From a virus, in IMG/VR virus record IMGVR_UViG_3300025671_000216, positions 1-35,650 of that record: a DNA stretch of 35,650 nucleotides; one strand, written 5' to 3'. The stretch's first letter is position 1, and each line of letters opens with the position of its first letter. The notes below the pieces were generated by a model. The model did no database searches and was not told the origin of the DNA. It saw only the letters and a list, made by a program, of their open reading frames with translations. A program made the position numbers and the translations under genes. Positions 1 to 29,980 of the stretch are shown one piece after another.

Positions 1-129
1 GGTGAAGCTGATGCAAAAACACCACTTCCAAAACTTGATTTAGAAGTATCTGATGCTGTTAAAGGATTGGCTGGAGAATATAAGCGTATTGCTGATATGG
101 GACTTTCTCCTGAAGAAGAAGCTAAATGA
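1..129 (+). CDS. C-terminal fragment of an upstream phage gene
   Basis: An open frame enters from the left edge and ends at TGA (127-129), giving the last 42 residues of a protein whose start lies outside the window. The fragment is acidic and helical, with the ending GLSPEEEAK. Its stop overlaps the next start as ATGA, so the two genes are translationally coupled and belong to the same rightward block as the RNA polymerase gene. No family can be named from so short a piece; a virion protein is the likely context. Confidence 0.7.
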   Translation, partial: GEADAKTPLPKLDLEVSDAVKGLAGEYKRIADMGLSPEEEAK

Positions 130-869
130 AAGACAATATTAGCACTGTCTATGATATGGGCCTTAGACAGCTTACAAGAGCTTCAGGAGGAAATCGAAAT
201 CTTGTTTTAGGAAATATTGATAGTTTAAACACAAATGCGCAACGTGGTTTGACGGAAATGGCTCGTTTAGATACCGTTCAAAAAATGCAAGCATTAGACA
301 AATATGCACAAGCAGTTCAGTATATTGACCAAGTTAACAGACAAAAAAAAGCTGTAAATCACAGTATTGATTTGCAAGAAGCACAGCAAAAACGACAAGC
401 AGGTGCACAACTTGCTGGTGCTGCTTGGCAAAATATGATGGAAGAATTTGAATATCGTAAAAAACATGGGCCGGGGAGTGCCAATCATCGTTTTAACGAA
501 ACAATGATGTTTAAATTAACCGGTATTGACCCTACGATTGAAGATGATAAATCCGGGAACATTAAAAATACGGCAAGTTATATTGAAAAAAGAAATCAAG
601 AATTGATTAAAAAGAACCAAGATCAACTTGACAGATACCAACGAGTTCAGGATTTAAACAGATCATGGGGAGCAATGACGCCAGAGCAACAAGCTGACGA
701 AGTTAAAAAATATGGAACTAAAGAAGCTGCAATACAAGCTTGGGGAGAGCGAGCAGGTATTTTATCAAAGCCAATGGCTCCACCAACAATACAAGAAACA
801 CCTACATCAAATTACCAATATGATGCAGAATGGTATAAAGACGCAACGAATTTTAATTATACAAGATAA
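126..869 (+). CDS. Helical virion-associated protein, crAss-like context (247 aa)
   Basis: Function unknown. The sequence is rich in Q, K, A and N and is predicted mostly helical: residues 1-60 carry a segment with YDMGLRQLTRASGGN and LVLGNIDSLN, and residues 45-110 look like a coiled coil with AQ and QQKRQAGAQLAG runs. There is no signal peptide and no enzyme motif. It starts in an ATGA overlap with the preceding gene and ends three bases before the 665-aa gene, which is followed by the giant RNA polymerase gene. In crAss-like phages, genes just upstream of the RNA polymerase encode virion or capsid-cargo proteins, so that role is inferred from position. It could also be a tail or portal-associated protein. 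Confidence 0.6.
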   Translation: MKDNISTVYDMGLRQLTRASGGNRNLVLGNIDSLNTNAQRGLTEMARLDTVQKMQALDKYAQAVQYIDQVNRQKKAVNHSIDLQEAQQKRQAGAQLAGAAWQNMMEEFEYRKKHGPGSANHRFNETMMFKLTGIDPTIEDDKSGNIKNTASYIEKRNQELIKKNQDQLDRYQRVQDLNRSWGAMTPEQQADEVKKYGTKEAAIQAWGERAGILSKPMAPPTIQETPTSNYQYDAEWYKDATNFNYTR

Positions 870-872: not shown

Positions 873-2870
873 ATGGCAAGAGGTTTAGTATCAGCGGGCA
901 GAATTGGATTAGCTGCTAATTTGAATAAAAGAGAATCTGCAAGACAAGACATGGATACTTTATCACGTCTTGTCCAAATGAAAGAGCAAGATGAACAAGC
1001 TGAAATGCAAGCTGCTTTAGCAGAGCAACAGTATTATGAACGTATTCGACAAGAAACTGATAAAATGCTTGAAGGAGATCGTATGCAGATTAATAAAAAA
1101 GCAAAAGCTATTCAACGTCAAATATCAGATAACATTAAACTGTTTGGGGGCTCCAGAAAAAAGTTTCTTGCAAGTGGAGGTCTTGGTATGTTGAATGATT
1201 ACAGTAATACATTGTTAGACTCCGAAGAAGTTCAAACATATAAAGCCAATAAAGTAAATCTTGAAAAGATTTTAGACCTGAAAGAAAAAGGAATGAGCGA
1301 TTTAATCTTGCCAAGAGATATGCAAGCCTTAGAAGATTATCAAAGAAATGGAAGAGGTACCATTACTTATGGAGGTGTTATGAATCAAATTGAAATGCCG
1401 CCAAACGCTGCGTTTACATTTGGTGAAAATGCAGAAACCATGGATATTGTTATGTATAAGAATAATAAAACAAAACTTCTTGGAAATATGATGATGGAAA
1501 ATCCTGATAAAGATTATTCAAAATTAACCCAAGAACAATTGGATAATGAAATCATGGCTTATGCATCTGCTAAAGGTTATTCTGTACCGGGTACTACAAA
1601 AGATACGACACGAATGGGTGGTGCTACTTCTGGTGTAACTTCTCCAAGAACAAGTGGTTCATCAAAACCGGCAGAAGTAGCTGAAACTATTAGTGGAAAT
1701 CTTGCTTACATCTTTGCAAAAGATCCTGGTAAAACAACTTCTTTCGAAGATATGTCAAAAGGAATCACTCATGAAAGTAACAATCCGTTGCTTGGTACTA
1801 TGATAGGTCATCAAAAATTTGATGTCATTACTAAAGTTGAGCCTTCTCTTTTAGAGCGATTTGGTGAAGCGGTCCATGATAAAATTCCAGGAATGGATAT
1901 TGCTAAAAAATATTTCGGAGTTGAATACGATTTAGAAAACCGTTACATGGTTCGTGGAGGTGTTTCATTTGATGGGCAAATGGCAAAAGCTGCGGCAGAG
2001 CATGTATTTGGACAAATGACCCCGGACGATGAAGGATACATGAATATTCAAATTAACGGAGGTAAAGGAGAGTATTTTGGAAACGGAGTTTTAATTGAAA
2101 ATGCTGAAGCATTTAAAAATTCACGTTGGAAAGTTGAAGGAATGGTAGGTGGATATAAAGCTAACATTCAAAATAAAGACGCTATGATTATGGATGCTAT
2201 CGACGAACATGGTAACATTGCGGAAGACAGGCAAGAAACCATGTATGATAGCTATAACAAAGAAGCGCAAGTTGGAGGACGTGAAGCAATGTTCTTATTG
2301 TTAAAAGACCAAGACGGAAATATGATCTATAAAGAGGTTCCATACGAAGGTTATATCTCTCAAAATAATTTCGGTCAATCTGTTGAAAAACATGTTGGTT
2401 CAAACGATCTTAGCGACGAGTTTAAAGAAAACTATAGTAAAACACAAAGACGTATTGAAGAAGCAAATAAAGTTAAAATTGAAAGAGGTTCAAGACCAAA
2501 AATTAAAGTCGAACAACCAATCTTTCAAAGTCCGTTATTTGAACAACAAATTCGTCAAAACTTTAATTTTGGAACCAATGGTTCACGTCGCATGAACTTA
2601 GCAAAAGCATTTTATCTTGCAATGGCACAACAAGGTAAAAGCGATATTGAACAAATGGTAACAAAAGACTACTTCTCTACATTTGTAGGAGAAATCTTTG
2701 GATTTGAAAAAGAATTAAAAAGTAAGCAAATTACAGACAGCCAATTACTCAATGGTTTAGAACAACAGATATATGCTCCACAGCATAGTGAAACAGCAGA
2801 CCAATTATTGAAGAATAGGATTTTAATTCAGACAATGAGAAATTATTTGAATAATCTTAGAACTCAATAA
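873..2870 (+). CDS. Probable internal virion protein upstream of RNA polymerase (665 aa)
   Basis: Not recognised by motif. Residues 1-110 form a long charged helix or coiled coil, including MKEQDEQAEMQAALAEQQ. The middle (about 110-270) contains a low-complexity linker rich in T, G and S, and the C-terminal half looks globular. There is no transmembrane segment and no catalytic motif. The ATG at 873 follows the previous stop with three bases between. The next gene, the 4050-aa polymerase, starts 28 bases after this stop. By analogy with crAss-like phages, where large proteins before the RNA polymerase are packaged with it, this is probably ejected cargo or a capsid-internal protein. That role is inference. 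Confidence 0.6.
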   Translation: MARGLVSAGRIGLAANLNKRESARQDMDTLSRLVQMKEQDEQAEMQAALAEQQYYERIRQETDKMLEGDRMQINKKAKAIQRQISDNIKLFGGSRKKFLASGGLGMLNDYSNTLLDSEEVQTYKANKVNLEKILDLKEKGMSDLILPRDMQALEDYQRNGRGTITYGGVMNQIEMPPNAAFTFGENAETMDIVMYKNNKTKLLGNMMMENPDKDYSKLTQEQLDNEIMAYASAKGYSVPGTTKDTTRMGGATSGVTSPRTSGSSKPAEVAETISGNLAYIFAKDPGKTTSFEDMSKGITHESNNPLLGTMIGHQKFDVITKVEPSLLERFGEAVHDKIPGMDIAKKYFGVEYDLENRYMVRGGVSFDGQMAKAAAEHVFGQMTPDDEGYMNIQINGGKGEYFGNGVLIENAEAFKNSRWKVEGMVGGYKANIQNKDAMIMDAIDEHGNIAEDRQETMYDSYNKEAQVGGREAMFLLLKDQDGNMIYKEVPYEGYISQNNFGQSVEKHVGSNDLSDEFKENYSKTQRRIEEANKVKIERGSRPKIKVEQPIFQSPLFEQQIRQNFNFGTNGSRRMNLAKAFYLAMAQQGKSDIEQMVTKDYFSTFVGEIFGFEKELKSKQITDSQLLNGLEQQIYAPQHSETADQLLKNRILIQTMRNYLNNLRTQ

Positions 2871-2898: not shown

Positions 2899-5800
2899 AT
2901 GCCAGATTACAGTAAACTATTTAGTCAACAAGCAGAAAAAGACCAAGCTGTAAATCGTCAAAATCCAAACCCTGTTAAAGTACACATGACAGAGGAGGAT
3001 ATGATTAATATGCAAAATGGCACTCCTGAAGAAAATATTGTTGCTAATCAAACAGGCGCACCACAAACACAACCTACTCAGGAACAACTTCAAGCGCAAG
3101 AACAAAAACGTCAAGATTCTTTAACTCCTGAGCAATTAGCAGATGAACGTATTTTACAAAATGAATATCCTATTCATAATGAAAGAAATATTCTTCCAAA
3201 CAATCCGTATACATGGACTCCAGATTATACGGAAAGAGGTTATTTAGAAGAAATAGGAACATCGTTCGTGCGTGGTTTTGGAAAACACGTTGTTGGTAGT
3301 ACTGGACAAATGTTGGCGCTGTTTAATGGTTTGGTTCCTGGATGGGATATCAAAGAAGGAAATATGGCTTCTCGATGGCTACAAGAGGCTGGAGAACAAC
3401 TTGCTGAACAAAATCAAGTTTATATGCCGGAAGAATTACGGGATTTAAAATTTGATATAAAAACACTTGCAAACCCTGATTTATGGTCTAAACAGTTAGC
3501 TGAATACATCCCGCAAGTCGTAGAATTTATTTTACTTTCTAAAGGAGCTGGTGCAGCTACAAAAATGGGAGCTCGTGGATTAGTGCGAAATTACACTAAA
3601 AAATTAGGTAAAGATTTCGTTGAGAAAACTGGGAAAAAAGTAGTTAAAAACACGGGTGATCAAGTAGCAAGAGGCGCTAAAGAAGTTGCTTCAGCTATTG
3701 GTGGACAAGGTGAAAGAAGCCTTATCTATGATTCTATGGGGGAGGCTACCAAACTTACTCTTAATGCATCTGAAATTACTGGTGGTGCTTTAAGTATGAA
3801 CTTGCTTGCAGGGATTCAAAATGGAGCGCATTTAGTTAATGAAATGGCTAAACAAGTTGATAAAGACGGGAATCCTAAATACAATGACAGGCAGCTTATG
3901 GAAATGGCTGCCGGTACCGTTGCTCATAACTTGTATTGGTTGCCAGTAGATGCGCTTTCTTATGGTCTTGTATATGCAAAAAGTTCCGGAATGTGGAAAG
4001 ACTTGTTCAAACCGATGCGAAAAAACATTGGTAAAGCTGCTGTAAGAGAAACTGTTTTTGATGCTCAACAGCAATTAAAAGTAATGTCCAATTCTTTTGC
4101 AAAACAAGCATCTCCATTATTAAAATTTGAAGATAAAGCACTTAGAACAGCACAGTATTTAGGAAAACCTGTTTTTGAAGGTCTTGAAGAAACATTGCAA
4201 GAAACATGGGAAGATTGGTCTGTTAAAAAAGCATTACAATCAACTACCGGTAAAAAGATCAAGTATGAAAATTACATGGATTTTTACTTCTCAAAAGAGA
4301 ATGAAGCAACACGCGTAATTTCTTTTGGATTAGGTGGTTTTATGGGAGGTGGTTCAGCAGTTATTGATGCTTTAAATCAAAAAGCAGAAGATCAATACAA
4401 GTTGTATTCAAAAACACAGCTTTTAAAAGAACGTGCAATTGACGGTCATAGAGATCAGCAAACAGCACAAGTGCAAGTAATTTACGATCAATTAATAGAC
4501 AACCAACATGACGGCAATGTAGATCAAGAAGCATTCATTGAAGACTTAACTAATAGAGGTGTTATTTTAGAAGATGAAAAACAACAATGGCTTGATATTG
4601 CTGAAAAAATTGCAATTGAAGATCAACAAGCAAAAGATTTGAATGTTGCTGGTCGTGATGCATTAATGCGTAATCGTGCAGATTTAGCAATTAATGAGTA
4701 CAGTTTAAAATTTCATGGCGAAAGATTTAACAATGCAATGACGGCTCTTGAAAAAGAGAAAGGGAATATGACCCGTTCTCAATACAAGAAAAAATTACAA
4801 GAGCGAAAAGAAGAATATGAGTTTTTAAAATCCGCACTTGAAGTTCAGCAAATGCGATTAAAACAAAGTATTGGAAATATTTTATCAGGAGAAGAAGGAA
4901 ACATAAACAATATTAAAACTGTTGAAATTGATGGAAAAACAGTTCCAATTGGTTTGACGCCTGAAATGTATAAGAAATACTATCAAATGTCTGATGAAGC
5001 TGTTATTGAATTAGCACGTTCACAGCAAAATAATAAAGGTGGAAATTTCTTTCAAAAAATGGCTGATTCTGTTCGAAACCTTTTTAATAAAGGAAAAGAA
5101 GAAATGCCTACTAAAGAGGAAGTTGGTAAAAAAGTTAGCAAAGCTGAACAAGCAATTAAAGACAGCAAACTTTATAAAAATCTTTTTCCAGATGAAGAAA
5201 CTAATGAAGAAACAGACGAAGGTTTTGATGGTAAGGTAATTGAATTTGAAACTAAAGTACCAGAGCCAGATGTTCCTACAGCACAAGGAGCTACTTGGGG
5301 AAGTTATCCAATTCCTGAATTACAAGATATGTCAGCTAACATTCAGGAAAAAATTGATGCTACAGAAGATGTTGATGGTAAGAAAAAACTTCAAGATTTA
5401 AAAGAAAAAGTAGACCAATACATTGTAGACAGAACTAAAGAATACAATGCAGAGGTTCAAAAAAGAAAAGCGGAAAAACAATCTAAAACAGAACCTAAAG
5501 AAAAGCCGGGAAGAGCTGCAAGATTTGCAGAAGATGAAAATCAAATTGAAGATATCGTTTCCGAAACAGTTGGTGATGTTCCGGGTAAAGAACGATTAGC
5601 TAAACAAGGAGTTGCAGCTGTTGATAAAGCCCTTAACGGTATAAAAGCAACTACTGAAGAAGATGCAAAAGAAGCTATTAAAAAATTAATAGCAGAAGAC
5701 AAAGGCTTTATTGAGCAGATATTAAAAAAAGGTACGCCAGAATACGTTCTCGAAGAATCGTTATTGAATCGTTTAAAAAAATTAAAAAAGATTGACGAAG

Positions 5801-8800
5801 AAATCAAAGGCGATACTAAAGGAAAAAAAGAACAAAAAAATAGAGCGCGTACACGCGTCAAAAACAGAAAAAAGAAAAAAATTCCATTAACCGAACAACA
5901 GCGCTTAGAACAAAAAGCAGCAGATCGCGTAAACAATCAAAGTTTACGCATGAAGGAAGCTTGGGAAAATAAAGAAGTTAGAGATAAAATAATTAATATA
6001 GCTAAAGACGATCCTAAGAAAGCTAAATCAGCTCAAAACTCATACGAACGTTACTTAGCCTCTACAACGAAAATTAGTAAAGCTGGAAGAAGAACGCTTC
6101 ATCAGCAAATTACTATAAACTATCACTTAAACAGAATGTTCCCTAATAGCAAACCACAAGTGTATGCTATGGACAATTTGTATGAAGCTGTAGGTGAAAG
6201 AGCGTTGGGTTATACTATAATGGGCGCCGTACTTATTGATGAAAAAGTATGGAATCAAGATCCATTATTTATGCATGAATTTGGACATATTTATTACCAG
6301 CTTACACCTAATGAAAAAGAAACAATAGAAATACTTAAACAAGCTGTAAAAAACACAAAGCTTTTAGAAAAGCTTTGGAAAATGTATGAGAAAGAAGCTT
6401 TATGGGCTTATGAAGGATACGATTATCATCGAACAAAAAGAAAAACAATAAGTCCTTACGGACAAATTAAAGTTCCTGATATCGAGCAGCAAAAACAGCA
6501 AAAACATAAAAATGGAAGACCTGTAGCATATCGTTTACCTATTGAAAAACAACCTTTAATTCTTGAAGAATTATTCGTTGAAACATTGCAAGGCCCATTA
6601 AGCAGAAGATTTAATAAATTCTTTGATCCGGTTAAAGAGCCTCAACGACAAGAGGCTGTAAAAGGATGGTTCCGTTTTATTAAAAAGTCAGTAAATAATG
6701 AAAAAGACTCACATCAAAATATTATAGAAGCAATTGATGGAGAGAATTTTGTAGACAATGATTTGATCACACACATAGCTCAAAACTTTGTAAAAGAACT
6801 TGATGGTGTAGATGTTACTACAAAAGGACGTGCGTCTTTATTTTTTGAAAATGACCAAGCAATTTTTGAAAGCGAAGACCAGGTTTTAAATGAACTTATA
6901 GCAGAAACAAGAAGATCTGAACAATCATCTTTAAGAAAGTACTTATCTGAAATCAAACCTGAAAAGATAGGAACTGTAAAAAAAGACTACAGCGTTTATT
7001 ACCAACGTCAAGAAGAAGAAGATTTTTACGGAAATGAAAATGACCATTTTGATTTTGATTTTGACGAGCAATTGAGTGAAGTAAACGACCATAATGAAAA
7101 AGATGAATTTGCATATTGGGATAAATCATTTGAAAGAGCTAATGACAAAATGAACAAAGTCATTAATGGTTTTGTTAATCGTTGGAATAAAGAAGCTAAT
7201 CTACGTCAAAATCAATTATTAGAAGCTCAAGAAAGAGGAGAAGTTGATGAAACAGTCTCTGCTTTATACACAGAGCGTATTACGCAAGAAGAAATTACAG
7301 AAAGCTTACAAGATCTTGCAAGAGAATATTATGCAGCACCTTCTTTTATTCGCGCTTTACAAGAAGAAAGCGGAGTTATGGAAGAATTTTACAATTACAT
7401 TACACAAACGTATGATGATGCATTGCAGCGTCTTCGTTCAGCACACTGGGTATATGCCAATAGTGAAGTAGTAATGGCTATAGCGCATCATATTAGTTCA
7501 GAAGGAAATTATGATTTAAAAGTCAAAAGCTCAAAATTAGATACTTGGAAGGCAAATTTTATTGCTTCCCAAATGGATAAAAATTCCAGTTTAAAAGCAA
7601 ATGTAATAAGCGCACTACAATCAAACAGTGTTACTGAAAAAAATCAAGCAATTAAAGATCTTATTATTGCTGCGGCTCCTAATTATAAAATAGCTAAAAA
7701 AATATTAGAACATGGCCATTTAGAAATCGAAGGACGTATTATTCCAATTCAAGAATCATTAAAAGAGCTTTTTGAATTAGAGGAAAGAGAAGTATCCAAA
7801 GCGGACAGATTTATGAATCCGGATGTAACAACAGCAACAAGAGTAAAAAATTCGTTTTTAAAATTTGCGGAAGCTGTTATTAGTACAGGTAAAAAATTCG
7901 GTCCTACTTCTGTAGTAGTCGCACCTAAAGGGCAGAACACATCTATTCGAATGTTTAGCAATCATTTGATTAAAACAATGCACAATGTTCGTAAAGATTT
8001 AGCATTGTCAGATAATGCACAAGACAAATTAGAATTGCAATTACTTAAAAATAGATTTATAAGTAAATACAGTAACAAAGAAAACATTGACAGCAAAACA
8101 AGAGCACGTCTAAGAATACCTACTGAAATTCTCCCTAATCCAATGATTGAATCTTGGTGGGATAAGTATCAGGAAAAAGGTATTATGCCTTCTATCGCTT
8201 TAGATTTAGGTACTGAAAATGACATGCTAAATAAAAATAGAAACTATAAAGAATCAACCGCAGAACAGCAATTGATAAACGAAACACTACAGTTTTTATT
8301 AAAAGATCAAAATGGAGAACAAGAATACTTAGGCTCCATGGATATTTTTGGTGACTCCTCAAGAAGATTTTTAACAACATTGCCTGTTCTTAAAGAAAGC
8401 AAAGCGCATTTAGCGCAAATGTATCAACTTTACGCAGCGCAATCTTACGATAAAAATCAACCAGCTGAAAAGCAAGATCAATTAATGAGCTTTAATGAAT
8501 TTAAAGAAGCTTTAAATAATGATGTACAAGACTGGATTCAGTACTTTAAAGATAATGGATCGTCGCTTTCAAAAATAAATAATTTACAACCGTTTTATGT
8601 AGGAGACACTTTAACAAAAAATGGAGAGTCATTCATTCGTCGCTTTGTATTTAACAGAATTGCTAATGGTTTCTACATGCATAATATAGTAAATCCAGGC
8701 GTTCCATTAAATTCTTTAGTAAAACGTCATAAAGGAAATATTGCACCAGTAATCGCTTTAGATCCAAATTTAAAAGTAGAAATGATTATGATGGGAAATC

Positions 8801-11800
8801 AGTACGATATTCCTTTCGATGAAAAAACTACTGAAGAAAAAAATGCAATGACTGAAGAAGAATTGCGTGAATACAATATCAAGCATAATGAATGGAAAAA
8901 GAACCGCGTCATTATGAATGATGGTATGCAATACATTCTTGAAGAAGATGCAGAACAAATTCAAGCAATTGGTCAAGGGTCTGTAAATTTAGGACGTGGA
9001 TATAAATTATTTTCGCATTCTATTGAACGTGACAATCCTTTATTTAGAGGTCAAACAGCACAAATGAAAGGCTATACGATGGTGCTTAGTAAAGAAATGG
9101 TAACTACCGGCAAGCATCAACACTTAAAACCTATTTACGATCTTTTAAAAAGAAGACGTGAGAAATTTATCAAATGGTATGAAAATAAATATGCAACATA
9201 CGATTATGCTACAGGTACAAGTGTTCCTAAAAAATACAATCCAGCATATCGTATTGACCGAAATGAAGCATCAGACAACATAAAATACATACCAATCGTA
9301 ACTCCTGTAAGTGCAGAAAAAGCAAGTTTGTTTACAAACAAAGAACTTGAAAAATTTCAAAAATATGCAACCTTAGAATCATTGAGAAATGAAAAAAACA
9401 TGGAAGCATATGAAGAAATGCTCGATAAAATGTTTTGGGTAAACGGAGATTTTGTAGGACTTGACGGTTCTAACTTTGGACCACAACAAGTAATGGATAA
9501 ACAATACGATCAAGCTACATTTTCAATCCAAGCACTTAGTTCTATTCTTGCGCATCAAAGAGGAAAAGAAAAATTTGAAGCAGCGAAAAAAATACAAGAT
9601 CTTATTGTAGATCAAAAATTAAAATTTCTTAAAGAGCGTGTTTTAAATGAAATAGATGTTGAGTATTGGGGAGATAAAAAATACACAGACTTTATTTTAA
9701 AGAAAGTAAATAAACGAGATGCAGATCCATACACAATTATGGCATTGTTAGATGGAGCTTTAGCTTATTCACCACACTTGTCAGAATTTGCAAATAATCA
9801 AATAAAAAGACAATTCATTGATAATGGAAACAATCTTGCAGTTCATGGAACTTATGGGCAAGTAGTTTCGGATATGGGATATGCTTTTAGCGTTTTAGAA
9901 GAAGGAGAAGTTGTTCGTCAAGGATATATCAATGGTTCAAATACATTAAATCCATATAGGAGAGGAGCTAATTCCACACAAGAAATGGAAATTATTCTTC
10001 CAAGAAACAAACAAACTTCTGATAAAACATATACCAGAGAACGAAAATCATATATTGGTAATGATGCTAAGAAAAAAGTATTTGATAGCTTAAATAAAAG
10101 TGAAGCTTTAAAAAAAGAATTTAAGTTAAACAGTAAAGGTGATATAGATGCCTTTATGGAAAAGCATCAAATTTATGCAGATAAGTTTTCTACACAATCT
10201 ATAGGATATTACATTCCTGGTGAAGTTGTGATGTTTACAAGAATACCACACAACGGTCCGGCTTTTATGGGTGTAGGTGAAGTTGTAGGTTTCAATGAAA
10301 GCGATTCAAATAATATTATTGTGCCTTCTGAATATGCACATATTGTTGGTTCAGATAATGATGGTGACGCGTTATTTGTCTATCAACGAGCAAAATCAAA
10401 AGATAAAAATGGCAAAGTTCGAGACAATGAAGAATACGTACATTGGAATGAAGCATTTGAATTAATGAAGCAGCAATGGCTATCTCCAGATATGTATGAA
10501 ATGCTTACTACGCCATTAGAATTTGAAGATGATGTAAATGTTGTTATTGATAAAATAAATAACAAAACAGGACAAAATACTGCAAATAAAAAAATGATGC
10601 CTTTTTCACCAAGACATTACAAAAAGCAGTACAACAACTCAGTAATTGCAAAACAAACTATTGGTATTGCTTTCGATACAGGAAGAACGTTAAATACATT
10701 AGCAGCTTATAATACGTTTTTAACTAATGGAACTGATGAAAACAACGAAAATCGTTTAACTGATATTATCATTAACAATAAAAGAAGAAATCGTTTTGCT
10801 GATTTTGGTTCTGGTAAAAATTCAAGAATACACCAATCAACAGTTTTAGCAAACATTGTACTTGATAGTACTAAAAATGGACATGCAGATGCATTAAACT
10901 TGAATATCAATAGTATTAGTAGTGCTGTAATTTTAGTTAATCTTGGGTTCAATCTTGAAGAAGTAGGAATGCTTTTAAATCACCCTGCTGCAAAAGAATA
11001 TCTTGAATTAAACAAACTTGTAAGCAACGATTATATTGATGGAATGACAGAGGGTGTTTTAAAATATATGATGCATAAAAAATATCCAAAAGCAAATATT
11101 TACAACTTAAATCAAACAACATTTAGAGTAAATGTAAATCCTGATACATCCGGATACAATTCAGATAATAATTCTGCTGAAATTATAAAATTGATGTATT
11201 ACTTATCAAATGTTTCTTCTGATATAAGGACTATTTCAAAGATGCTTTCAGGACATAAAAAAATTGAAGCAAATCCACACGCTTTAAACAAGCAAGTAGA
11301 TGAATTTAAAAAACTCATTAAAAACGATAAAAGAGATCCGCAAACACGTAAGAAAAATTCAACATTACTTTTTGCAAATCAAATACAAAATGCTCCTGAA
11401 TTTAGAAATTATTTAGCAGTAGCAGAAGCTTACGCACCTCATCAGCAAAAGCTAAGTATGGTGTTTAATAAGAGTATTGAAGATATCTTAAAACAAATAT
11501 CTGATAAAATTGTACTATCCGATCTAACAGATGCACAGCTTCGACATTTTTCTAATAAAATGAAACCATTTATTTACAGTCGTTTATTAGGCGTAAATAA
11601 TATTCCTTTTGAAGAAATTGAACAATTATTCATGGTAGTAAATCCTGAAATGACTGTTGAACCAACAGAAGAATCAGGAAATGTATTGACAGAAGAACAA
11701 GTTCAATCTTCTCCTATTCAAATAGTTTATGACTTAGAACAATATATAAGAACGCTTCAAACAGGCGATAATTTGTATCAAGAGAATTTAGTTAATTCAG

Positions 11801-14800
11801 AACTAAATGACACCGCTTATTCACGTTCTCGTTTATTTGGGCAAGGGTTAATTTGGGATAGTACTGGAATTTGGTTAAATCCAGATCTTTTAGCTAAATG
11901 GACAACTAAAGATGATATAGACACTTTAAGAGATGAATTTGCTCAACTTCCTCAGCAATTACAGCAAAACTTAATTGTATATGATTTGGTAGCGCATGGA
12001 TGGGAAACTAAAAAATCAATGTATCCAATCTTCCCTGAAGAAATCACAAATACAATTCGAAGAAGAGCTATGGAATTTCAAAATCAAGCTCAAACTAAAA
12101 AACTTGATAATGCAATTCTTAAAAAAGCATATCAAACCATTGAAGATTTAGAAATTATTAACCCAAATTATAATAATTTCCCAACGATTTTTAGTAATGA
12201 AGAGATTGATTTTAAAAACCAAGAAAACAATAAAAAATTAATTAAATCGATTTTAAATAAAGATGAAATATTAGAACAAGTAAATAAAGGAGTTCCTTTA
12301 ACTGTTCAGGTAATTAATTTAGATACGAAAGAAAAAACAAATTTAAGAGTAAATGCACTTCCTCGTAATTTAGATGATGAAGTAGCAAGATATTTCCAAC
12401 GACGTAAAAATGAATTTGCTAAAAATACTTCCGGGTATAAACAATTATTTGCTGAAAAAATATTAGAGAAAATTCAAACTAATAATTTAAGATTTTTTGA
12501 AAAAGCAAGACCAATAGTGCTTCCAAAAACACTTCAAGGTATGCCTGAAAATCTTTTCTTGGTAAGTATTCCAGACCCAACAGTTTCAGAACCATTTACG
12601 CTGTTAAAACCAGCTTTAGAAAGAGGTGACCTATTAATTATTCCAAAAGAGGATATTGAATCATATCCTATGCGTGTTGTCAAAGAAAACACCGAAAAAA
12701 AAAAGAATAAACGGATAGGAAGAGCGTATAAAACTGACTTTTATAGATACACTTCGGATGAAATAATGAGCGAAGAAGACTTTTTCGCTGCTTATGAATC
12801 TCCTTATCAAATAGATCAGGTTCAAAAAGCTGTACTTTATGAAAAATATGTCAAAGATAAAGAAGAAGCCAATGAAATTGCTAAGGACTATCCTCCTGAA
12901 GTAATTGCTACAATGGATGAGAAAGAGCTTATAGAAGTGTATAATAAATACGCTGCTAAAGACGTATACGCTTATTCTATCATAACAACACCAGTCACTC
13001 TTGAACTAATTAGCAGAGCTTCAGCAGAACAATCAGCGCTTACAAAAGTTAGTGAAGGCAATGATGATATTGGTGTGCTTCAAAGTTATTTACAAACCAA
13101 CAATATTACTGCAACGCATCCAGCAACACAAGCTATGCAGCGAGAATTGGAAGTTGAGTTTAAAGGCTTTCTAAACGAGCGCCGTAAATACATGAGAAAA
13201 ATTAATGAAGTTTCTGAAGCGTTGTATGAAGAAAAGTTCAATTATAGAGGCACAAGATCACCATTGCTTAATAGACTTATTATGGCTGTAAAAATTCTAT
13301 TTAAAAATAGAGCTAAAATTTACGAGCAATTATATGGCAATATTGTAGAAATAGAAACAAGTATAAACGATAATGGAATCAAACAAAAAAGAATACGTTT
13401 GCTTCCTGAATTTCAATTAAAAAGCAAATTAAAAAGCGGAGAGATATCTCAAGCTGAATATAATTTTGCAGAAGTTTTTAGAGAAATTACTACAGAGTTA
13501 CATCCAAGCGCTAATGACCCGAACTTTAAAAAAGGATTTGTTCCGGCAATCGCTATGGGCCGTTTAGAATCTTTTGGAAGTAAAGGTTTGTTAGGATTGT
13601 TTGTAAATAGTCAGCATTCTGATACAGCTATATACAATGTGTATATGAAATTCAATGATGAAACTGTAAGTTTTAAAGAAATTGAAGATTACTTCAAAGT
13701 TCAGAATAATAACAATTTACAAAACGTTCAAGAATACATTAAGCTTCGAAACAAAGCTAAAAAATTAATGAAGCAACGTATTAATGAAGATGGCTCTCCA
13801 CTTATTGTTACAAAAGTTTCTAATGTAACACTTGCCGGACATGGTATGGTCAACCAATTTGCAAACCAAGGATGGGTAGATTTTGAAGATATGATCTCTA
13901 TGGACTTAAATAAAGCTTTAGCAGATTTTACACACGCTTCTTTATTTGTTACAGGAAATAAAAATTTCCAAGGGTTTATGAAACTCCAGGCAAAAGTAGA
14001 TGGATTGTTATTGCATAACCAAATGAAAGGATTTAATAATCAAAACCGATTTGCACAAAAAATTCTAAAAGAATACTCTTTAAAAGGATTTCGACAAGAT
14101 AAAAAACGGTTCCTTGATAAAGTTCTTGATGTTGGAATTAAAGGAAATTTACTTTACATCATGGGATGGAAGCTCTTTGCTCTTGGAAAAGGAGCTTACG
14201 CCATTGGAAATATTGCAATAGGTAAATACCATAATATTAAAAATCAAGGTGGTGCCGCATGGCTAAGAGGAGAAAAAAGATTTTGGGGGCTTACAAGGGA
14301 TGGAAAAATTGGAACTAAAAAAGCATTAGGTGTTTTGAACACTTTAAACTTTATGAATGTCAATATGTACGATGAAGTGAATTTATCTTCATCTTCCGGA
14401 TTGGATAAAATATTTACAGACTTAGCACTCTTACCAATGATTACTTCTGAAAAATGGATTCAAGGATCGCATATGCTTGGACTGCTTACAGAAGAACAAT
14501 GGAATAGATTTGACGACAACGGAAATTACAAGCCAGGAGAAACAGAAATTACCAATCAAGAAATCGTAAAACTTGAAAACGAAGTTAAAAACGCACATGG
14601 TAAAGGATATACGCCTACAGATCAACGCGTAATACAGCGTTATTCTTTAGGACGTATGATGTTACAATTCAGCCGTTTTATTCCTACAATGTTTTATGAT
14701 CGATTCTCTAAAGAGGACATTAATATTTACGGTCAAAAACATGTTGGAAGTTTACGAGCTGTAGCCACACCTATTTGGAAAGTAATGACCGGGGAAATAA

Positions 14801-15051
14801 CTCCAGAACAATTTGCTAAATACCGTTCTTCATTAGATCCGTTAACAAAGCAACGTTTTGATTCAGGGTTAAGAGGTCTTGCAATGGTTACATTAGCGCT
14901 ATTTGCTGCGGAAAATTTTAATAGTGGTATAGCAAAAGGAATTGCTAATGACGCTAATTATTTAGTCAACTCAGAGAAGCTTGAATACAAAGCTATGCCG
15001 TCTTTAATTCGGACCATTCACGAATTATTGCGACCATTAATGCCTATGTAA
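2899..15051 (+). CDS. Giant crAss-like virion RNA polymerase with zincin protease motif (4050 aa)
   Basis: Predicted DNA-dependent RNA polymerase carried in the virion and ejected to transcribe early genes. The catalytic signature is GSDNDGDALF, with Asp2486, Asp2488 and Asp2490 placed as the metal-binding DxDGD of double-psi beta-barrel polymerases. It is preceded by RIPHNGPAFMGVGEVVGF and IIVPSEYAHI, which resemble the region before NADFDGD in bacterial beta-prime subunits. About 1350 residues earlier, MHEFGH (His1126, Glu1127, His1130) is a zincin metalloprotease motif, with a downstream EELFVET that could give the third ligand. Residues about 475-492 and 3750-3776 are glycine-rich or hydrophobic and could contact membrane during ejection, and residues 3995-4007 form another apolar stretch. 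Residues 760-1050 are highly charged linkers or coiled coils. At 4050 aa it is far longer than a minimal polymerase, so self-cleavage by the zincin is plausible but inferred. Confidence 0.85.
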   Translation: MPDYSKLFSQQAEKDQAVNRQNPNPVKVHMTEEDMINMQNGTPEENIVANQTGAPQTQPTQEQLQAQEQKRQDSLTPEQLADERILQNEYPIHNERNILPNNPYTWTPDYTERGYLEEIGTSFVRGFGKHVVGSTGQMLALFNGLVPGWDIKEGNMASRWLQEAGEQLAEQNQVYMPEELRDLKFDIKTLANPDLWSKQLAEYIPQVVEFILLSKGAGAATKMGARGLVRNYTKKLGKDFVEKTGKKVVKNTGDQVARGAKEVASAIGGQGERSLIYDSMGEATKLTLNASEITGGALSMNLLAGIQNGAHLVNEMAKQVDKDGNPKYNDRQLMEMAAGTVAHNLYWLPVDALSYGLVYAKSSGMWKDLFKPMRKNIGKAAVRETVFDAQQQLKVMSNSFAKQASPLLKFEDKALRTAQYLGKPVFEGLEETLQETWEDWSVKKALQSTTGKKIKYENYMDFYFSKENEATRVISFGLGGFMGGGSAVIDALNQKAEDQYKLYSKTQLLKERAIDGHRDQQTAQVQVIYDQLIDNQHDGNVDQEAFIEDLTNRGVILEDEKQQWLDIAEKIAIEDQQAKDLNVAGRDALMRNRADLAINEYSLKFHGERFNNAMTALEKEKGNMTRSQYKKKLQERKEEYEFLKSALEVQQMRLKQSIGNILSGEEGNINNIKTVEIDGKTVPIGLTPEMYKKYYQMSDEAVIELARSQQNNKGGNFFQKMADSVRNLFNKGKEEMPTKEEVGKKVSKAEQAIKDSKLYKNLFPDEETNEETDEGFDGKVIEFETKVPEPDVPTAQGATWGSYPIPELQDMSANIQEKIDATEDVDGKKKLQDLKEKVDQYIVDRTKEYNAEVQKRKAEKQSKTEPKEKPGRAARFAEDENQIEDIVSETVGDVPGKERLAKQGVAAVDKALNGIKATTEEDAKEAIKKLIAEDKGFIEQILKKGTPEYVLEESLLNRLKKLKKIDEEIKGDTKGKKEQKNRARTRVKNRKKKKIPLTEQQRLEQKAADRVNNQSLRMKEAWENKEVRDKIINIAKDDPKKAKSAQNSYERYLASTTKISKAGRRTLHQQITINYHLNRMFPNSKPQVYAMDNLYEAVGERALGYTIMGAVLIDEKVWNQDPLFMHEFGHIYYQLTPNEKETIEILKQAVKNTKLLEKLWKMYEKEALWAYEGYDYHRTKRKTISPYGQIKVPDIEQQKQQKHKNGRPVAYRLPIEKQPLILEELFVETLQGPLSRRFNKFFDPVKEPQRQEAVKGWFRFIKKSVNNEKDSHQNIIEAIDGENFVDNDLITHIAQNFVKELDGVDVTTKGRASLFFENDQAIFESEDQVLNELIAETRRSEQSSLRKYLSEIKPEKIGTVKKDYSVYYQRQEEEDFYGNENDHFDFDFDEQLSEVNDHNEKDEFAYWDKSFERANDKMNKVINGFVNRWNKEANLRQNQLLEAQERGEVDETVSALYTERITQEEITESLQDLAREYYAAPSFIRALQEESGVMEEFYNYITQTYDDALQRLRSAHWVYANSEVVMAIAHHISSEGNYDLKVKSSKLDTWKANFIASQMDKNSSLKANVISALQSNSVTEKNQAIKDLIIAAAPNYKIAKKILEHGHLEIEGRIIPIQESLKELFELEEREVSKADRFMNPDVTTATRVKNSFLKFAEAVISTGKKFGPTSVVVAPKGQNTSIRMFSNHLIKTMHNVRKDLALSDNAQDKLELQLLKNRFISKYSNKENIDSKTRARLRIPTEILPNPMIESWWDKYQEKGIMPSIALDLGTENDMLNKNRNYKESTAEQQLINETLQFLLKDQNGEQEYLGSMDIFGDSSRRFLTTLPVLKESKAHLAQMYQLYAAQSYDKNQPAEKQDQLMSFNEFKEALNNDVQDWIQYFKDNGSSLSKINNLQPFYVGDTLTKNGESFIRRFVFNRIANGFYMHNIVNPGVPLNSLVKRHKGNIAPVIALDPNLKVEMIMMGNQYDIPFDEKTTEEKNAMTEEELREYNIKHNEWKKNRVIMNDGMQYILEEDAEQIQAIGQGSVNLGRGYKLFSHSIERDNPLFRGQTAQMKGYTMVLSKEMVTTGKHQHLKPIYDLLKRRREKFIKWYENKYATYDYATGTSVPKKYNPAYRIDRNEASDNIKYIPIVTPVSAEKASLFTNKELEKFQKYATLESLRNEKNMEAYEEMLDKMFWVNGDFVGLDGSNFGPQQVMDKQYDQATFSIQALSSILAHQRGKEKFEAAKKIQDLIVDQKLKFLKERVLNEIDVEYWGDKKYTDFILKKVNKRDADPYTIMALLDGALAYSPHLSEFANNQIKRQFIDNGNNLAVHGTYGQVVSDMGYAFSVLEEGEVVRQGYINGSNTLNPYRRGANSTQEMEIILPRNKQTSDKTYTRERKSYIGNDAKKKVFDSLNKSEALKKEFKLNSKGDIDAFMEKHQIYADKFSTQSIGYYIPGEVVMFTRIPHNGPAFMGVGEVVGFNESDSNNIIVPSEYAHIVGSDNDGDALFVYQRAKSKDKNGKVRDNEEYVHWNEAFELMKQQWLSPDMYEMLTTPLEFEDDVNVVIDKINNKTGQNTANKKMMPFSPRHYKKQYNNSVIAKQTIGIAFDTGRTLNTLAAYNTFLTNGTDENNENRLTDIIINNKRRNRFADFGSGKNSRIHQSTVLANIVLDSTKNGHADALNLNINSISSAVILVNLGFNLEEVGMLLNHPAAKEYLELNKLVSNDYIDGMTEGVLKYMMHKKYPKANIYNLNQTTFRVNVNPDTSGYNSDNNSAEIIKLMYYLSNVSSDIRTISKMLSGHKKIEANPHALNKQVDEFKKLIKNDKRDPQTRKKNSTLLFANQIQNAPEFRNYLAVAEAYAPHQQKLSMVFNKSIEDILKQISDKIVLSDLTDAQLRHFSNKMKPFIYSRLLGVNNIPFEEIEQLFMVVNPEMTVEPTEESGNVLTEEQVQSSPIQIVYDLEQYIRTLQTGDNLYQENLVNSELNDTAYSRSRLFGQGLIWDSTGIWLNPDLLAKWTTKDDIDTLRDEFAQLPQQLQQNLIVYDLVAHGWETKKSMYPIFPEEITNTIRRRAMEFQNQAQTKKLDNAILKKAYQTIEDLEIINPNYNNFPTIFSNEEIDFKNQENNKKLIKSILNKDEILEQVNKGVPLTVQVINLDTKEKTNLRVNALPRNLDDEVARYFQRRKNEFAKNTSGYKQLFAEKILEKIQTNNLRFFEKARPIVLPKTLQGMPENLFLVSIPDPTVSEPFTLLKPALERGDLLIIPKEDIESYPMRVVKENTEKKKNKRIGRAYKTDFYRYTSDEIMSEEDFFAAYESPYQIDQVQKAVLYEKYVKDKEEANEIAKDYPPEVIATMDEKELIEVYNKYAAKDVYAYSIITTPVTLELISRASAEQSALTKVSEGNDDIGVLQSYLQTNNITATHPATQAMQRELEVEFKGFLNERRKYMRKINEVSEALYEEKFNYRGTRSPLLNRLIMAVKILFKNRAKIYEQLYGNIVEIETSINDNGIKQKRIRLLPEFQLKSKLKSGEISQAEYNFAEVFREITTELHPSANDPNFKKGFVPAIAMGRLESFGSKGLLGLFVNSQHSDTAIYNVYMKFNDETVSFKEIEDYFKVQNNNNLQNVQEYIKLRNKAKKLMKQRINEDGSPLIVTKVSNVTLAGHGMVNQFANQGWVDFEDMISMDLNKALADFTHASLFVTGNKNFQGFMKLQAKVDGLLLHNQMKGFNNQNRFAQKILKEYSLKGFRQDKKRFLDKVLDVGIKGNLLYIMGWKLFALGKGAYAIGNIAIGKYHNIKNQGGAAWLRGEKRFWGLTRDGKIGTKKALGVLNTLNFMNVNMYDEVNLSSSSGLDKIFTDLALLPMITSEKWIQGSHMLGLLTEEQWNRFDDNGNYKPGETEITNQEIVKLENEVKNAHGKGYTPTDQRVIQRYSLGRMMLQFSRFIPTMFYDRFSKEDINIYGQKHVGSLRAVATPIWKVMTGEITPEQFAKYRSSLDPLTKQRFDSGLRGLAMVTLALFAAENFNSGIAKGIANDANYLVNSEKLEYKAMPSLIRTIHELLRPLMPM

Positions 15052-16962: not shown

Positions 16963-17397
16963 TCATAATTCTATTTCTATTTGCTCATTAGGCAATGGAA
17001 TTTCACAATTAAATATCTCCATAGCTAACCTACGAGCTCTTTCATGAAATTCTTCCTGATCTACAGTAGTGTTTTCTTTCGTGCTTTTAGACACTCTTAA
17101 AATCTCTCCAGTTTCTTCTACAATTTTTTCTTCATAATTGCAGTTGTACTTTAAAAATTCATGTGTGTCTTTAGCATTGTAAAATTCACCCCATTCATCT
17201 TGGATCAGTCTTGCCCATATCGGTATAATAACTCCCCAATAATATCGGTTCTGTTGTATACTACGCTCTTTCCTATGAACTTTAAAAGTCAAAGTAAGTG
17301 TCTTACCCTCTAAAGCGCGTATAACCTCTCTAATACGATTAGAATTGCGTTTAAAGCTACCATTAAGAACAGTAGTTACAATTTCAAATTGCTTCAT
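16963..17397 (-). CDS. NinB/Orf-like recombination protein (144 aa)
   Basis: Resembles the lambda NinB (Orf) family of recombination mediators, which bind single-stranded DNA. The key part is RSIQQNRYYWGVIIPIWARL (about 46-65), followed by a helix with THEFLKYNCNYEE and a late segment with STKENTTVDQEEFHERARR and a C-terminal CEIPLPNEQ. The length fits the family (about 140-150 aa). It overlaps the PD-(D/E)XK nuclease gene start by four bases, and the surrounding set of exonuclease, SSB and coiled-coil recombination protein supports a recombination role. Assignment is by pattern only. Confidence 0.55.
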   Translation of the reverse strand: MKQFEIVTTVLNGSFKRNSNRIREVIRALEGKTLTLTFKVHRKERSIQQNRYYWGVIIPIWARLIQDEWGEFYNAKDTHEFLKYNCNYEEKIVEETGEILRVSKSTKENTTVDQEEFHERARRLAMEIFNCEIPLPNEQIEIEL

Positions 17398-18068
17398 TTT
17401 GTGTTTCGCATTAAATTGTTCATGTATCCTACACGTTCATTAATGTAGTTTTGCATCAACTTGTAGGACCATTTGATCTTACGCTGTTGCTTACCGCCAT
17501 CGGTAGTCAAATACCTGACAGGTACAAAACTTTGAGTAAACAATGCTGAATTAAATCCGGTACCTGACATTGGAATTGGTACACACTTATTAATAAAAAT
17601 ACCATGATGCTCCCATAACATACGCGCTTTTAAAGGAAAAGTATGACTTGTAGACGCTTTAGCACCTTGTCTCACAGCGCTTGTTGTAGGTTTGACATCT
17701 ACATAAGAGATAGTATCATACACGCCATTTTCAGGACTTACAACATCATGTGCAACAAATAATGGTTTGCCAAACAGAAATGTAAAACCATGATCGACCT
17801 TTTCATAAAAAATATATTCTCCTTCTTTAGTCCAGGTAATCTTATAATCACACGTATAATCAATCTTTGGAAACAGATTAAATTCTTCACGTTCTTTTAG
17901 CTTGGTTTTAAATCGTTTGTAACGACCATAAGGGGCCGTAGGAAGTACGGAAAACTTTTCAGGTTCCCGTACATATTCCTTAACATATCCCGCAGCCTTT
18001 AAATCATTAAGCCACCATTCGAAATACAATTCAATTTGATTGCGTTCTGATTTAGTTTTGCGTTTCAT
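17394..18068 (-). CDS. PD-(D/E)XK family nuclease (224 aa)
   Basis: Candidate phage nuclease, possibly resolvase-like. The core reads CDYKITW with Asp74, a long beta hairpin, then SYVDVKPTTS with Asp124 and Lys126, giving the D...DxK arrangement of PD-(D/E)XK enzymes; an N-terminal helix with Glu13 could supply the acidic residue before the core. TFPLKARMLWEHHGIFI then resembles the helix and strand after the core in phage DUF1064-type resolvases. The start overlaps the end of the coiled-coil gene by 17 bases. In crAss-like and related phages such a nuclease lies beside SSB and a Gp157-like coiled-coil protein, as here. Confidence 0.55.
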   Translation of the reverse strand: MKRKTKSERNQIELYFEWWLNDLKAAGYVKEYVREPEKFSVLPTAPYGRYKRFKTKLKEREEFNLFPKIDYTCDYKITWTKEGEYIFYEKVDHGFTFLFGKPLFVAHDVVSPENGVYDTISYVDVKPTTSAVRQGAKASTSHTFPLKARMLWEHHGIFINKCVPIPMSGTGFNSALFTQSFVPVRYLTTDGGKQQRKIKWSYKLMQNYINERVGYMNNLMRNTK

Positions 18069-19056
18069 CGAGCTCTAACCAACTTTTAATTTTACCTTGA
18101 TAATTCTCAATACCCGCAATTACACTTTTCTTAGTCTTGCGTTCTTTATCATTGGAAGGATTGATCACTTTAACTGTTGCGATAAACGCATTGAAAGCTT
18201 CCATCATTTTATTTTTAAAATAATCAGGATTGGTCTGTTGTAAAGAAGGAGCAATAATTTCTTCTTCTTTTTCTTCCGGTTTCTTTAAAGTCAATTCAAC
18301 TTCATGTTCTCGTTCTTTAATTGCGTTTTGCAGCAATGAAATACACGTTTCTTTCATTTTGTTAAAACGAAGTGTTAACGCTTCAACAACATCTTCAGAT
18401 AAGATTTCAATATCTTCTTCTAAGAGATCTAAAGACGTTTTATTAAGTGTATCAATTTCAATTAACAAAGCAACGTATGAATAGGTTTCTGCTTGTTTCA
18501 ATGTTTTATTCATTGTTTCTTCAATAAACTTATCATACTTTAATTTCGTTTGCATGCGCTTGATGATAAGCTCGTTCTGATCCATTTTTTCTTCCAGCTC
18601 TTTTTGTTTTTCCAAAAGCTCTGCATTTTTACGATCTTCAGCTTCTTTACGCTTGCGTGCTTTTTCCAATTCAAACTCTTTAAACTCCTCTACAAGTGTT
18701 TGCTTGGCATTTTTAGCACCGTTTAAAAATAGTTTTTCAATTGCATCCAGTTTACGACCTACTTCCAAGTAAGGTTTTTTCAGTTCAGCTTTGGTATTTT
18801 TAGTCTTTTGATTAAAAGCACCAATAAACTTAATAGCCTCTTTGTATTGGTCAATCGTTTCAGGTTTTTCAGGATCATATTTGATTGTTGTAAACTCCTG
18901 AATTTTCAACATTTCAGCAATGATAGGATTGAACTTTACAATATCTTTTGCGTTCAATTCATTATTGAGTGCGACCAATACTTCTTGCGCTTCTTGAGGT
19001 AACGACTGTAATTCTTCTTCAGGAATTACCTCAACTTCTTTAATTTGTTTTGACAT
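18052..19056 (-). CDS. Coiled-coil phage protein, DUF1351/Gp157-like (334 aa)
   Basis: Long helical protein with a charged coiled coil across about residues 85-180 (many E and K, e.g. KARKRKEAEDRKNAELLEKQ). The N-terminal third has the pattern of DUF1351-type phage proteins, with IKFIGAFNQKTKNTKAELKKPYLE. The C-terminal residues 290-334 form a small charged domain. Proteins of this kind accompany phage single-strand annealing and nuclease genes and are thought to help recombination or replication. It overlaps the PD-(D/E)XK gene and lies two bases after the 87-aa gene's stop. Confidence 0.5.
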   Translation of the reverse strand: MSKQIKEVEVIPEEELQSLPQEAQEVLVALNNELNAKDIVKFNPIIAEMLKIQEFTTIKYDPEKPETIDQYKEAIKFIGAFNQKTKNTKAELKKPYLEVGRKLDAIEKLFLNGAKNAKQTLVEEFKEFELEKARKRKEAEDRKNAELLEKQKELEEKMDQNELIIKRMQTKLKYDKFIEETMNKTLKQAETYSYVALLIEIDTLNKTSLDLLEEDIEILSEDVVEALTLRFNKMKETCISLLQNAIKEREHEVELTLKKPEEKEEEIIAPSLQQTNPDYFKNKMMEAFNAFIATVKVINPSNDKERKTKKSVIAGIENYQGKIKSWLELDETQN

Positions 19057-19058
19057 AC

Positions 19059-19322
19059 CTATTTGATTAGATTAGTAATGTTATTTGAAATAGCATTATA
19101 TTGTTCAATGTATTGTTTTAAAGAGATTGTTTTCTCTTGGTTGTGCATAATTACCTTTTGCATAGCAATGTACCTTAAAGCAGAAGGCATATTAGAATAA
19201 TGTCCATGTTGTTTTGAAACAGTCTTTGACTTGTCTTTTGCCAATTTGGTTTCGAAAACAGTGTGATTGTAATTGTCCACTTCAATATAAAATGGAGCAA
19301 TAGAAAAATCTTCAATTATCAT
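19059..19322 (-). CDS. Small phage protein (87 aa)
   Basis: Not assigned. It has a beta-rich N terminus (FSIAPFYIEVDNYNHTVFET) and a helical C-terminal part (SALRYIAMQKVIMHNQ, then LKQYIEQYNAISNNITNLI). This pattern is common in small proteins next to phage exonuclease and recombination genes, with no known role. It starts four bases inside the end of the exonuclease gene (ATGA overlap), so it is translationally coupled to it. Confidence 0.6.
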   Translation of the reverse strand: MIIEDFSIAPFYIEVDNYNHTVFETKLAKDKSKTVSKQHGHYSNMPSALRYIAMQKVIMHNQEKTISLKQYIEQYNAISNNITNLIK

Positions 19323-20131
19323 TTTCTCTGTTTTTTTAAAAGTGTTAATAATTCAAAGGCACCTTGATATTTCTTCTGAAAATGCGGGCCTCTATTCATT
19401 CTCAGTTTTACTAAATTCCATGTTTCTACAAAGCAATCAATACCCGCAACAATACCATGTTTTTGTATATATGCTTGAAACACAACATATTGTAATCTAT
19501 TTGAATCTGTTTTTGTTAATAACTCACTGCAAGTCACTGGGCCACAGCCACTTAAACCTGTTATGTTATCAACAGTATCACCAATAAGCATTTGCTCCAT
19601 AAGGTTCTTAAATGCCTGTTCCTTAGTAATTTCAATCAGTACATCATTTAAAATATCATAATGTGTACCCGGTACTTGCTTTAAGTCTTTATCTTCTGAA
19701 TAGATAAAAGTATCTTCATCTTGAAGCATGCAGATCAAATCATCTGCTTCCAATTCCGGATAAATGACACAAGGATAATTCTCTTTTAAATAATTCTCAA
19801 TTTTGATTCGGTCTGAAAACTCTCTCGGATAAGCTTGTGCTTTTTGTGGTCGATTCCCTTTATACTGCTTTTCATAAGATACTGCATGTCTGAAATTCAA
19901 ATGACGACTTCCGGAAAAACAAAGCAGTAAAGCCGGCGCATCAATATGCGCCGTTACTTTACTTAATGCTTTATCTACTTCCGTAGGAATGTAGTTCATT
20001 TCTAAGTATGAAGGTGTTTTTTCATGCTGTTTTACAACAGATGATGTCACGATAAATCGCACAAAATCCGCATCAATCAAACCAATCTTATCGGTTTTAA
20101 TTTTCTCTTTTGCTTTAATGAAAAAGTCCAT
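19319..20131 (-). CDS. 5'-3' exonuclease / flap endonuclease (PolA N-terminal type, 270 aa)
   Basis: Phage FEN-like nuclease that removes RNA primers and flaps during replication. Visible motifs run in the family order: GLIDAD (Asp20, Asp22), YEKQYKGNRP (basic loop, 87-95), ELEADDL (Glu126, Glu128, Asp130, Asp131), YSEDKDL (Asp147, Asp149), and LIGDTVDNITGLSGCGP with Asp185 and Asp188 leading into the helix-three-turn-helix DNA-binding motif. All metal-binding acids appear present. The length of 270 aa matches stand-alone phage FENs. It lies between the SSB side of the replication module and the recombination genes. Confidence 0.9.
   Translation of the reverse strand: MDFFIKAKEKIKTDKIGLIDADFVRFIVTSSVVKQHEKTPSYLEMNYIPTEVDKALSKVTAHIDAPALLLCFSGSRHLNFRHAVSYEKQYKGNRPQKAQAYPREFSDRIKIENYLKENYPCVIYPELEADDLICMLQDEDTFIYSEDKDLKQVPGTHYDILNDVLIEITKEQAFKNLMEQMLIGDTVDNITGLSGCGPVTCSELLTKTDSNRLQYVVFQAYIQKHGIVAGIDCFVETWNLVKLRMNRGPHFQKKYQGAFELLTLLKKQRK
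19934..19953. repeat. Perfect hairpin in the exonuclease gene
   Basis: CGGCGCAT and ATGCGCCG around a 4-base loop, with GTAA and TTAC extending the stem past a 3-base bulge. GC-rich in an AT-rich gene. Confidence 0.7.
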
Positions 20132-20333
20132 AAATAAAATTCACGATAAAAACTATTAAAAATATTGTTAGTGTTACAGGCCACAAGAATAAATCAAGTA
20201 ATAAGACTTGGTGTCTTTTTTGATAATAATAGAGGTATTGTAAACTCCCAATTTTTGGTTCGGTAAACTTGTGAAACACATATCCAATAAAGAAATATGT
20301 AATCACTACAAATGCTATAGATATAAAACTCAT
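20115..20333 (-). CDS. Small membrane protein, two transmembrane helices (72 aa)
   Basis: Two hydrophobic helices at about residues 2-22 (FISIAFVVITYFFIGYVF) and 44-70 (LLLDLFLWPVTLTIFLIVFI) are joined by a polar loop containing YLYYYQKRHQ. No signal cleavage site or enzymatic motif is evident. It overlaps the exonuclease start by 17 bases. Small two-helix membrane proteins in phages can be holins, superinfection exclusion factors or host-envelope modifiers; nothing here decides between them. Confidence 0.6.
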   Translation of the reverse strand: MSFISIAFVVITYFFIGYVFHKFTEPKIGSLQYLYYYQKRHQVLLLDLFLWPVTLTIFLIVFIVNFIYGLFH

Positions 20334-20337
20334 GTTT

Positions 20338-20595: not shown

Positions 20596-20620
20596 AATAT
20601 GTATTTAGAAGGTTAAAATT

Positions 20621-20642: not shown

Positions 20643-20651
20643 TTTCTGATT

Positions 20652-21976: not shown

Positions 21977-21979
21977 CAA

Positions 21980-22267: not shown

Positions 22268-22282
22268 ACTAATTATTTTATT

Positions 22283-23695: not shown

Positions 23696-23697
23696 AT

Positions 23698-29978: not shown

Positions 29979-29980
29979 AA

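Follow-up and report, generated by a model that had tools for sequence, protein, structure and literature searches.

The giant gene and its surroundings

The window analyzed here, i.e., the whole stretch of 35,650 bases, is an entire virus record classed as linear and, therefore, probably a fragment. Its plus strand carries an open reading frame of 4,050 codons, which starts with ATG and has no internal stops, bearing out the single unbroken 12-kb frame reported in a preliminary description of this DNA. Two likely cargo genes precede it, and the motifs and regions of the encoded giant protein are collected in Table 1. On the minus strand (16963-35413) lie genes for a NinB/Orf-like mediator (16963-17397), an exonuclease (19319-20131), a DnaB-like helicase (22328-23695) and an anti-restriction protein (phrog_7245, 26618-27529), the remaining block being mostly without assigned function.

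Table 1. Coordinates of genes, regions and motifs on the plus strand of the window
Feature	Position	Strand	Description
Upstream gene	126-869	+	247 aa, cysteine-free; likely cargo
Upstream gene	873-2870	+	665 aa, cysteine-free; in relatives, a homologue precedes the giant gene; likely cargo
Giant virion RNA polymerase gene	2899-15051	+	4,050 aa, single unbroken frame, zero in-frame cysteine codons
N-terminal region	3136-4698	+	residues 80-600; family-conserved, mildly glycine-rich
Borderline hydrophobic segment VISFGLGGFMGGGSAVIDA	4315-4371	+	residues 473-491; relatives hydrophobic at the equivalent position
Poorly conserved linker	4699-6030	+	residues 601-1044
Zincin-like region	6031-6798	+	residues 1045-1300; from conservation; structure model of low confidence
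HEFGH	6274-6288	+	residues 1126-1130; all three motif residues (H, E, H) invariant in 7/7 members
E1224	6568-6570	+	invariant; candidate third zinc ligand in a (D/E)E-x-F helix
RNA polymerase core, crAss type	7846-11598	+	residues 1650-2900
SDNDGD catalytic motif	10351-10368	+	residues 2485-2490; metal-binding triad of a beta-prime-type barrel
VLDSTKNGHADALNLN...NHP block	10843-11052	+	aligns with VDxxK...N...QP, a block conserved in Crassvirales polymerases
C-terminal domain	12796-15048	+	residues 3300-4050; homologous to a separate Crassvirales RNAP subunit (phi14:2 gp76, crAss001 gp49)
Borderline hydrophobic segment LAMVTLALFAAENFNSGIA	14878-14934	+	residues 3994-4012

In two relatives with records of 77-79 kb (G005 and G002), genes for TerL, portal, MCP-like, tail and cargo proteins share one orientation and replication genes have the opposite one, the giant gene being the last in a cysteine-free cargo block that follows the TerL, portal, head and tail genes. 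The cargo block of G005 includes a cysteine-free gene of 433 aa (L009:18364-19665; 439 aa in G001) between a 738-aa gene and the giant gene; such a gene is absent from the window, where the 665-aa gene directly adjoins the giant gene. The homologue of this 665-aa gene in G002 (76,921 bp) is split across the record ends (end of L014, start of L003), as would be seen in a nearly complete genome that is circularly permuted; the junction frames are off by one base, and sequence may be missing.

Glycine-rich and hydrophobic segments at both ends of the protein had been proposed to act in membrane passage. Hydrophobic segments are indeed present near both ends, with Kyte-Doolittle maxima of 1.31 and 1.27 (about 1.1-1.8 in relatives), i.e., borderline for membrane helices, and the glycine enrichment is mild (8% in residues 80-600 and 7% in residues 3300-4050). 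For the N-terminal region, which yielded no detectable relative outside the family, we infer a possible role at the membrane or in ejection. Charged residues make up 43% of the stretch 730-1045.

A family of cysteine-free giant proteins

An HExxH motif arises in 5.8% of shuffled proteins of the same composition and, thus, a single copy carries little weight by itself. A whole-protein pattern search of viral contigs gave zero matches; a 50-residue query around DNDGD recovered six viral contigs, and C-terminal queries recovered three more distant ones. The full-length members are the window protein (4,050 aa), L002 (4,112), L005/L006 (4,163), L003 (3,965), G007 (3,756), G008 (3,901) and G009 (3,965); L005 and L006 have identical gene lengths throughout and count as one, giving a family total of seven, all from viral contigs, with pairwise identity down to 28%. 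No relatives were found in GTDB genome contigs, and tblastn with the first 3,000 residues of either the giant protein or its relative L006 gave no match among 50,697 phage records; scanned against Pfam and PHROG, the giant protein gave sub-threshold matches only.

The joint presence of HEFGH and SDNDGD in one chain, as originally noticed, extends to the entire family: all seven full-length members carry HExxH (HEFGH, HEFAH, HEMTH, HELSH or HEMAH, at about 1060-1128) followed in the same chain by DxDGD (at about 2310-2531), and neither motif is lost in any of them. Residues H1126, E1127, H1130, E1224, D2486, D2488, G2489 and D2490 (window numbering) are invariant, while merely 20 of the 256 positions of the zincin-like region are so. 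E1224 lies 94 residues past HExxH, at the position expected of a third zinc ligand. Since the record is linear-ended and comes from a metagenome, an assembly artefact fusing separate genes might be considered; its probability is negligible, and it is refuted by contigs from different samples, in which the parts follow the same order within one full-length frame (3,756-4,163 aa).

Not a single cysteine is found among the 27,912 residues of the seven chains. This exclusion extends to the neighboring cargo genes: in the window, plus-strand genes have 0/4,962 cysteines vs. 60/6,092 for minus-strand genes (p = 3e-16); in G005, five cargo proteins have 0/6,392 vs. 68/8,837 for head and tail proteins (p = 9e-17); and in G002, the respective counts are 0/5,063 and 54/8,394 (p = 1e-11). 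Base composition does not account for this absence, since the giant gene, when read in its two remaining frames, has 82 and 181 cysteine codons. In G005 (L008, L009, L006) and G002 (L013, L014, L003) the exclusion begins at a sharp gene boundary; the G005 genes just before the giant gene (265, 793, 738 and 433 aa) are all cysteine-free, whereas the adjoining upstream tail and head genes are not. Most of the examined Crassvirales cargo proteins have few cysteines and some have zero, and in the literature searched we found no publication that addresses cysteine in the cargo of crAss-like phages. N4-type virion RNA polymerases (vRNAPs) also lack cysteine, which has been linked to tail passage (PMC3915230). 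Zero cysteine is fitting for ejection as an unfolded thread, and such strict exclusion is a candidate sequence-only marker of injected proteins.

Polymerase homology and phage lineage

The context of DNDGD (TRIPHNGPAFMGVGEVVGFNESDSNNIIVPSEYAHIVGSDNDGDALFVY) aligns with YRIPNQGQSSNDPLQIVGILPEAMGDTIVAYTEIPTKTGSDFDIDKMYVML of phi14:2. When 90-residue segments tiled along the chain were compared with the Crassvirales motif, the two on-site segments reached P of about 96% (96.2%, at 2425-2431), the two partly overlapping the site about 20%, and the rest about 1% or less. A core profile built from the seven members matched that of seven Crassvirales cores with P 97.9% and E 4e-13 over 371 columns; starting from phi14:2 gp77 as single sequences, no match emerged until both sides were enlarged. 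The AlphaFold model of residues 1700-2890 is weak (pLDDT 50.9), with the DNDGD stretch under 50 and the barrel expected to hold it, one of the two double-psi beta-barrels of 6VR4-type chains, poorly modelled; nevertheless, a Foldseek search with this low-confidence model among 350,542 solved chains placed 6VR4, the virion RNAP of phi14:2, alone under E 0.001 (E 4.2e-4, prob 1.00). VIA-align gave a Z of 10.9 over 518 residues for the same pair (4.6 for the next chain), with an rmsd of 14.0 that makes the domain arrangement of the model unreliable. A sequence search of PDB chains with the zincin region and with the core found nothing. Altogether, the alignment to crAss-like polymerases and the 6VR4 match support the originally suggested identity, and the DNDGD region is, as judged by sequence, a genuine RNA polymerase site of crAss type.

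With P 97.5% and E 8e-12, the C-terminal domain matched the tails of Intestiviridae giant proteins as well as the C-terminal parts of phi14:2 gp76 and crAss001 gp49; a control comparison with catalytic cores gave 0.2%. Taken with the core homology, this means that two or more units made as separate proteins in phi14:2 and crAss001 are combined in a single chain. An assignment to the N4 type was rejected, as the core is of the 6VR4 type and gave zero matches to T7-type RNAP families.

Comparison with individual phages refines the earlier statement that crAss-like phages divide these functions among several proteins. In phi14:2 (gp076, gp077 and gp078; polymerase gp077 of KC821624, alike in its core by profile and fold) and crAss001 (gp50, gp49 and gp47), an HExxH protein occupies the same cargo block as the polymerase, as in the window phage; however, these are three separate proteins in each phage rather than one chain, with HExxH and polymerase in gp76 vs. 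gp77 of phi14:2 and in gp47 vs. gp50 of crAss001. Their polymerases also have DFDID/DFDVD in place of DNDGD, and the counterparts contain one to three cysteines each. Intestiviridae giants of LMMB, crAss002 and R. jaberico (4,070-4,245 aa) fuse the RNAP core to the C-terminal subunit, as in the window, but their zincin is fused to an RNAP-associated protein, which leaves zincin and polymerase on two proteins. The statement does not extend to two single-chain cases, neither of them cysteine-free: gp70 of cr55_1 (Suoliviridae, 4,551 aa) combines HEAFH at 2001 with ADFDVD at 3444, while the C-terminal subunit stays on a second protein (gp71), and gp33 of Flavobacterium phage Fpv1 (4,401 aa) combines DYDID at 3222 with HEVIH at 4179, thus placing HExxH after the polymerase, unlike in the window. 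Fusion of HExxH and RNAP as such is, therefore, not unprecedented; what is new is the complete one-chain form. The DNDGD variant of the motif is also seen in gp17 of Azobacteroides phage ProJPt-Bp1 (L038:20709-31154), which has GDDNDGDKLFF at about 2373 and no HExxH.

The window itself has neither TerL nor portal, and the affinity of the phage was judged from G005 and G002, whose TerL matches are nearly all Crassvirales or Fpv1-like and whose profiles match those of Crassvirales for portal (P 97.7%) and TerL (P 95.2%). The MCP, tail tubular, stabilization/muzzle and IHF signature genes were undetected in these two relatives by hhalign with two-sequence profiles, and tblastn with MCP gave no match. 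In the TerL tree, the branch (length 2.61) joins another long branch, and the deep forks are weak. Filing the phage as Crassvirales was dropped, with a TerL branch too long to place and structural signature genes unmatched; the lineage, a group of uncultured viruses of bacteria, is crAss-related. Among the TerL sequences compared, that of cr272_1 (L062:208-2265) is interrupted in frame by four stops when read with table 11, which agrees with reports of reassigned stop codons in some crAss-like phages.

Proposed working and the predicted zincin

Overall, the giant protein is most probably (with a probability of roughly 0.85) a virion-packaged, DNA-dependent RNA polymerase of crAss type, which unites the polymerase core with an N-terminal region, a zincin-like metallopeptidase and a C-terminal subunit domain. 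Virions of crAss001 contain equivalent proteins and have tail constrictions too narrow to let them through in folded form (PMC10172136). For packaging, ejection and transcription, as well as for the activity and target of the protease, we infer the following course. The giant protein, plausibly packaged as one chain as the preliminary description had it, would be packed inside the capsid and threaded, partly or wholly unfolded, through the portal and tail ahead of the DNA, its lack of cysteine keeping the thread free of disulphides. Once in the host, the polymerase would refold and transcribe early genes, its early targets probably being the opposite-strand replication block (15-35 kb), and the zincin would probably act after delivery, on its own chain or on a host protein.

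The zincin assignment is probable and is drawn from conserved residues. All seven members combine HExxH with a conserved downstream glutamate ligand, in the same layout as that of phage polyvalent-protein zincins, where an HExxH helix is followed by a second helix bearing Glu (PMC5512222). The AlphaFold model of the region is poor (pLDDT 43.7, no PDB match), and its profile comparison with known crAss or N4 zincins gave no match (P 2.5%). These two results, along with the chance frequency of HExxH given above, would suit a merely structural or metal-binding motif without proteolysis, or a region that is not a zincin; we consider this improbable in view of the fitting helix layout and of four candidate active-site residues that all stay invariant down to 28% identity in a region where so few positions do.

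Provided that the predicted zincin is active, self-processing and host-directed cutting are about equally open. An injected effector that is delivered aboard the polymerase and cuts host proteins (e.g., of defence or transcription) is a serious possibility, if short of an even chance: in Crassvirales and their relatives the zincin shifts between N-terminal, C-terminal and separate positions yet stays in the cargo, much like a passenger, and the idea has been suggested for polyvalent proteins generally (PMC5512222), although the sequence does not hint at a specificity. Autoprocessing of the chain, either before or during packaging or after ejection, would free the polymerase, the N-terminal region and the C-terminal domain from one another and leave a working enzyme that resembles the multi-protein crAss system. 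This reading is tentative. The phages with separate parts show that the parts are able to function apart, long, charged and unconserved linkers flank the zincin on both sides, and Iyer et al. propose zincin processing as a theme of polyvalent proteins, P1 DdrB being cut before packaging (PMC5512222). However, the zincin-bearing N4 vRNAP is packaged unprocessed (PMC5512222), which disfavours cutting before packaging, and crAss001, LMMB and others retain the zincin despite a separate polymerase, which shows that its general task cannot be to part the two.

The closest parallel in design to this crAss-type polymerase is offered by the vRNAPs of N4 type (Schitoviridae), single chains of about 3,500 aa with an N-terminal region, a zincin and a large C-terminal domain, which are described as always fused to the zincin domain (PMC5512222) and are ejected through the tail (PMC12633501). 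In N4 gp50, HExxH lies in domain C1 of the C-terminal region, which dampens transcription (PMC12633501). Being one giant chain that lacks cysteine and bears a zincin-type motif, the window protein would work like an N4 vRNAP but is not one: the N4-type polymerase is a T7-like single-subunit enzyme, unrelated to the core described here, and its zincin comes after the polymerase. Given a tblastn match between the two kinds (detailed below for phage Presley), crAss-type and N4-type cargo may have zincins of common origin or may have exchanged them.

Relatives of the window phage mostly distribute polymerase, zincin and flanking domains over two or three proteins, and phage N4, which is unrelated, arrived at a similar design. 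The T7-like enzyme of N4 and the cellular-type enzyme of this family both exist as one giant chain that lacks cysteine and includes a zincin (predicted in the latter), and this parallel between two unrelated polymerases suggests that enzymes sent through a phage tail obey common physical rules. A bolder version, speculative and rather unlikely as a whole, is that a deep, undescribed lineage next to Crassvirales merged its whole early-transcription cargo into one strictly cysteine-free chain, an N4 design with an unrelated polymerase, and that the zincin cuts this polymer of >4,000 residues into a working complex only after delivery. The one-chain form also offers a single protein on which the timing of any cleavage relative to ejection can be studied. 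Among N4-type enzymes, the vRNAP of Acinetobacter phage Presley (L034:10326-20804) is cysteine-free like the window protein (0/3,492) and has HEIMH at 2212, in a region that tblastn with phi14:2 gp76 aligns at 35.8% identity over the motif.
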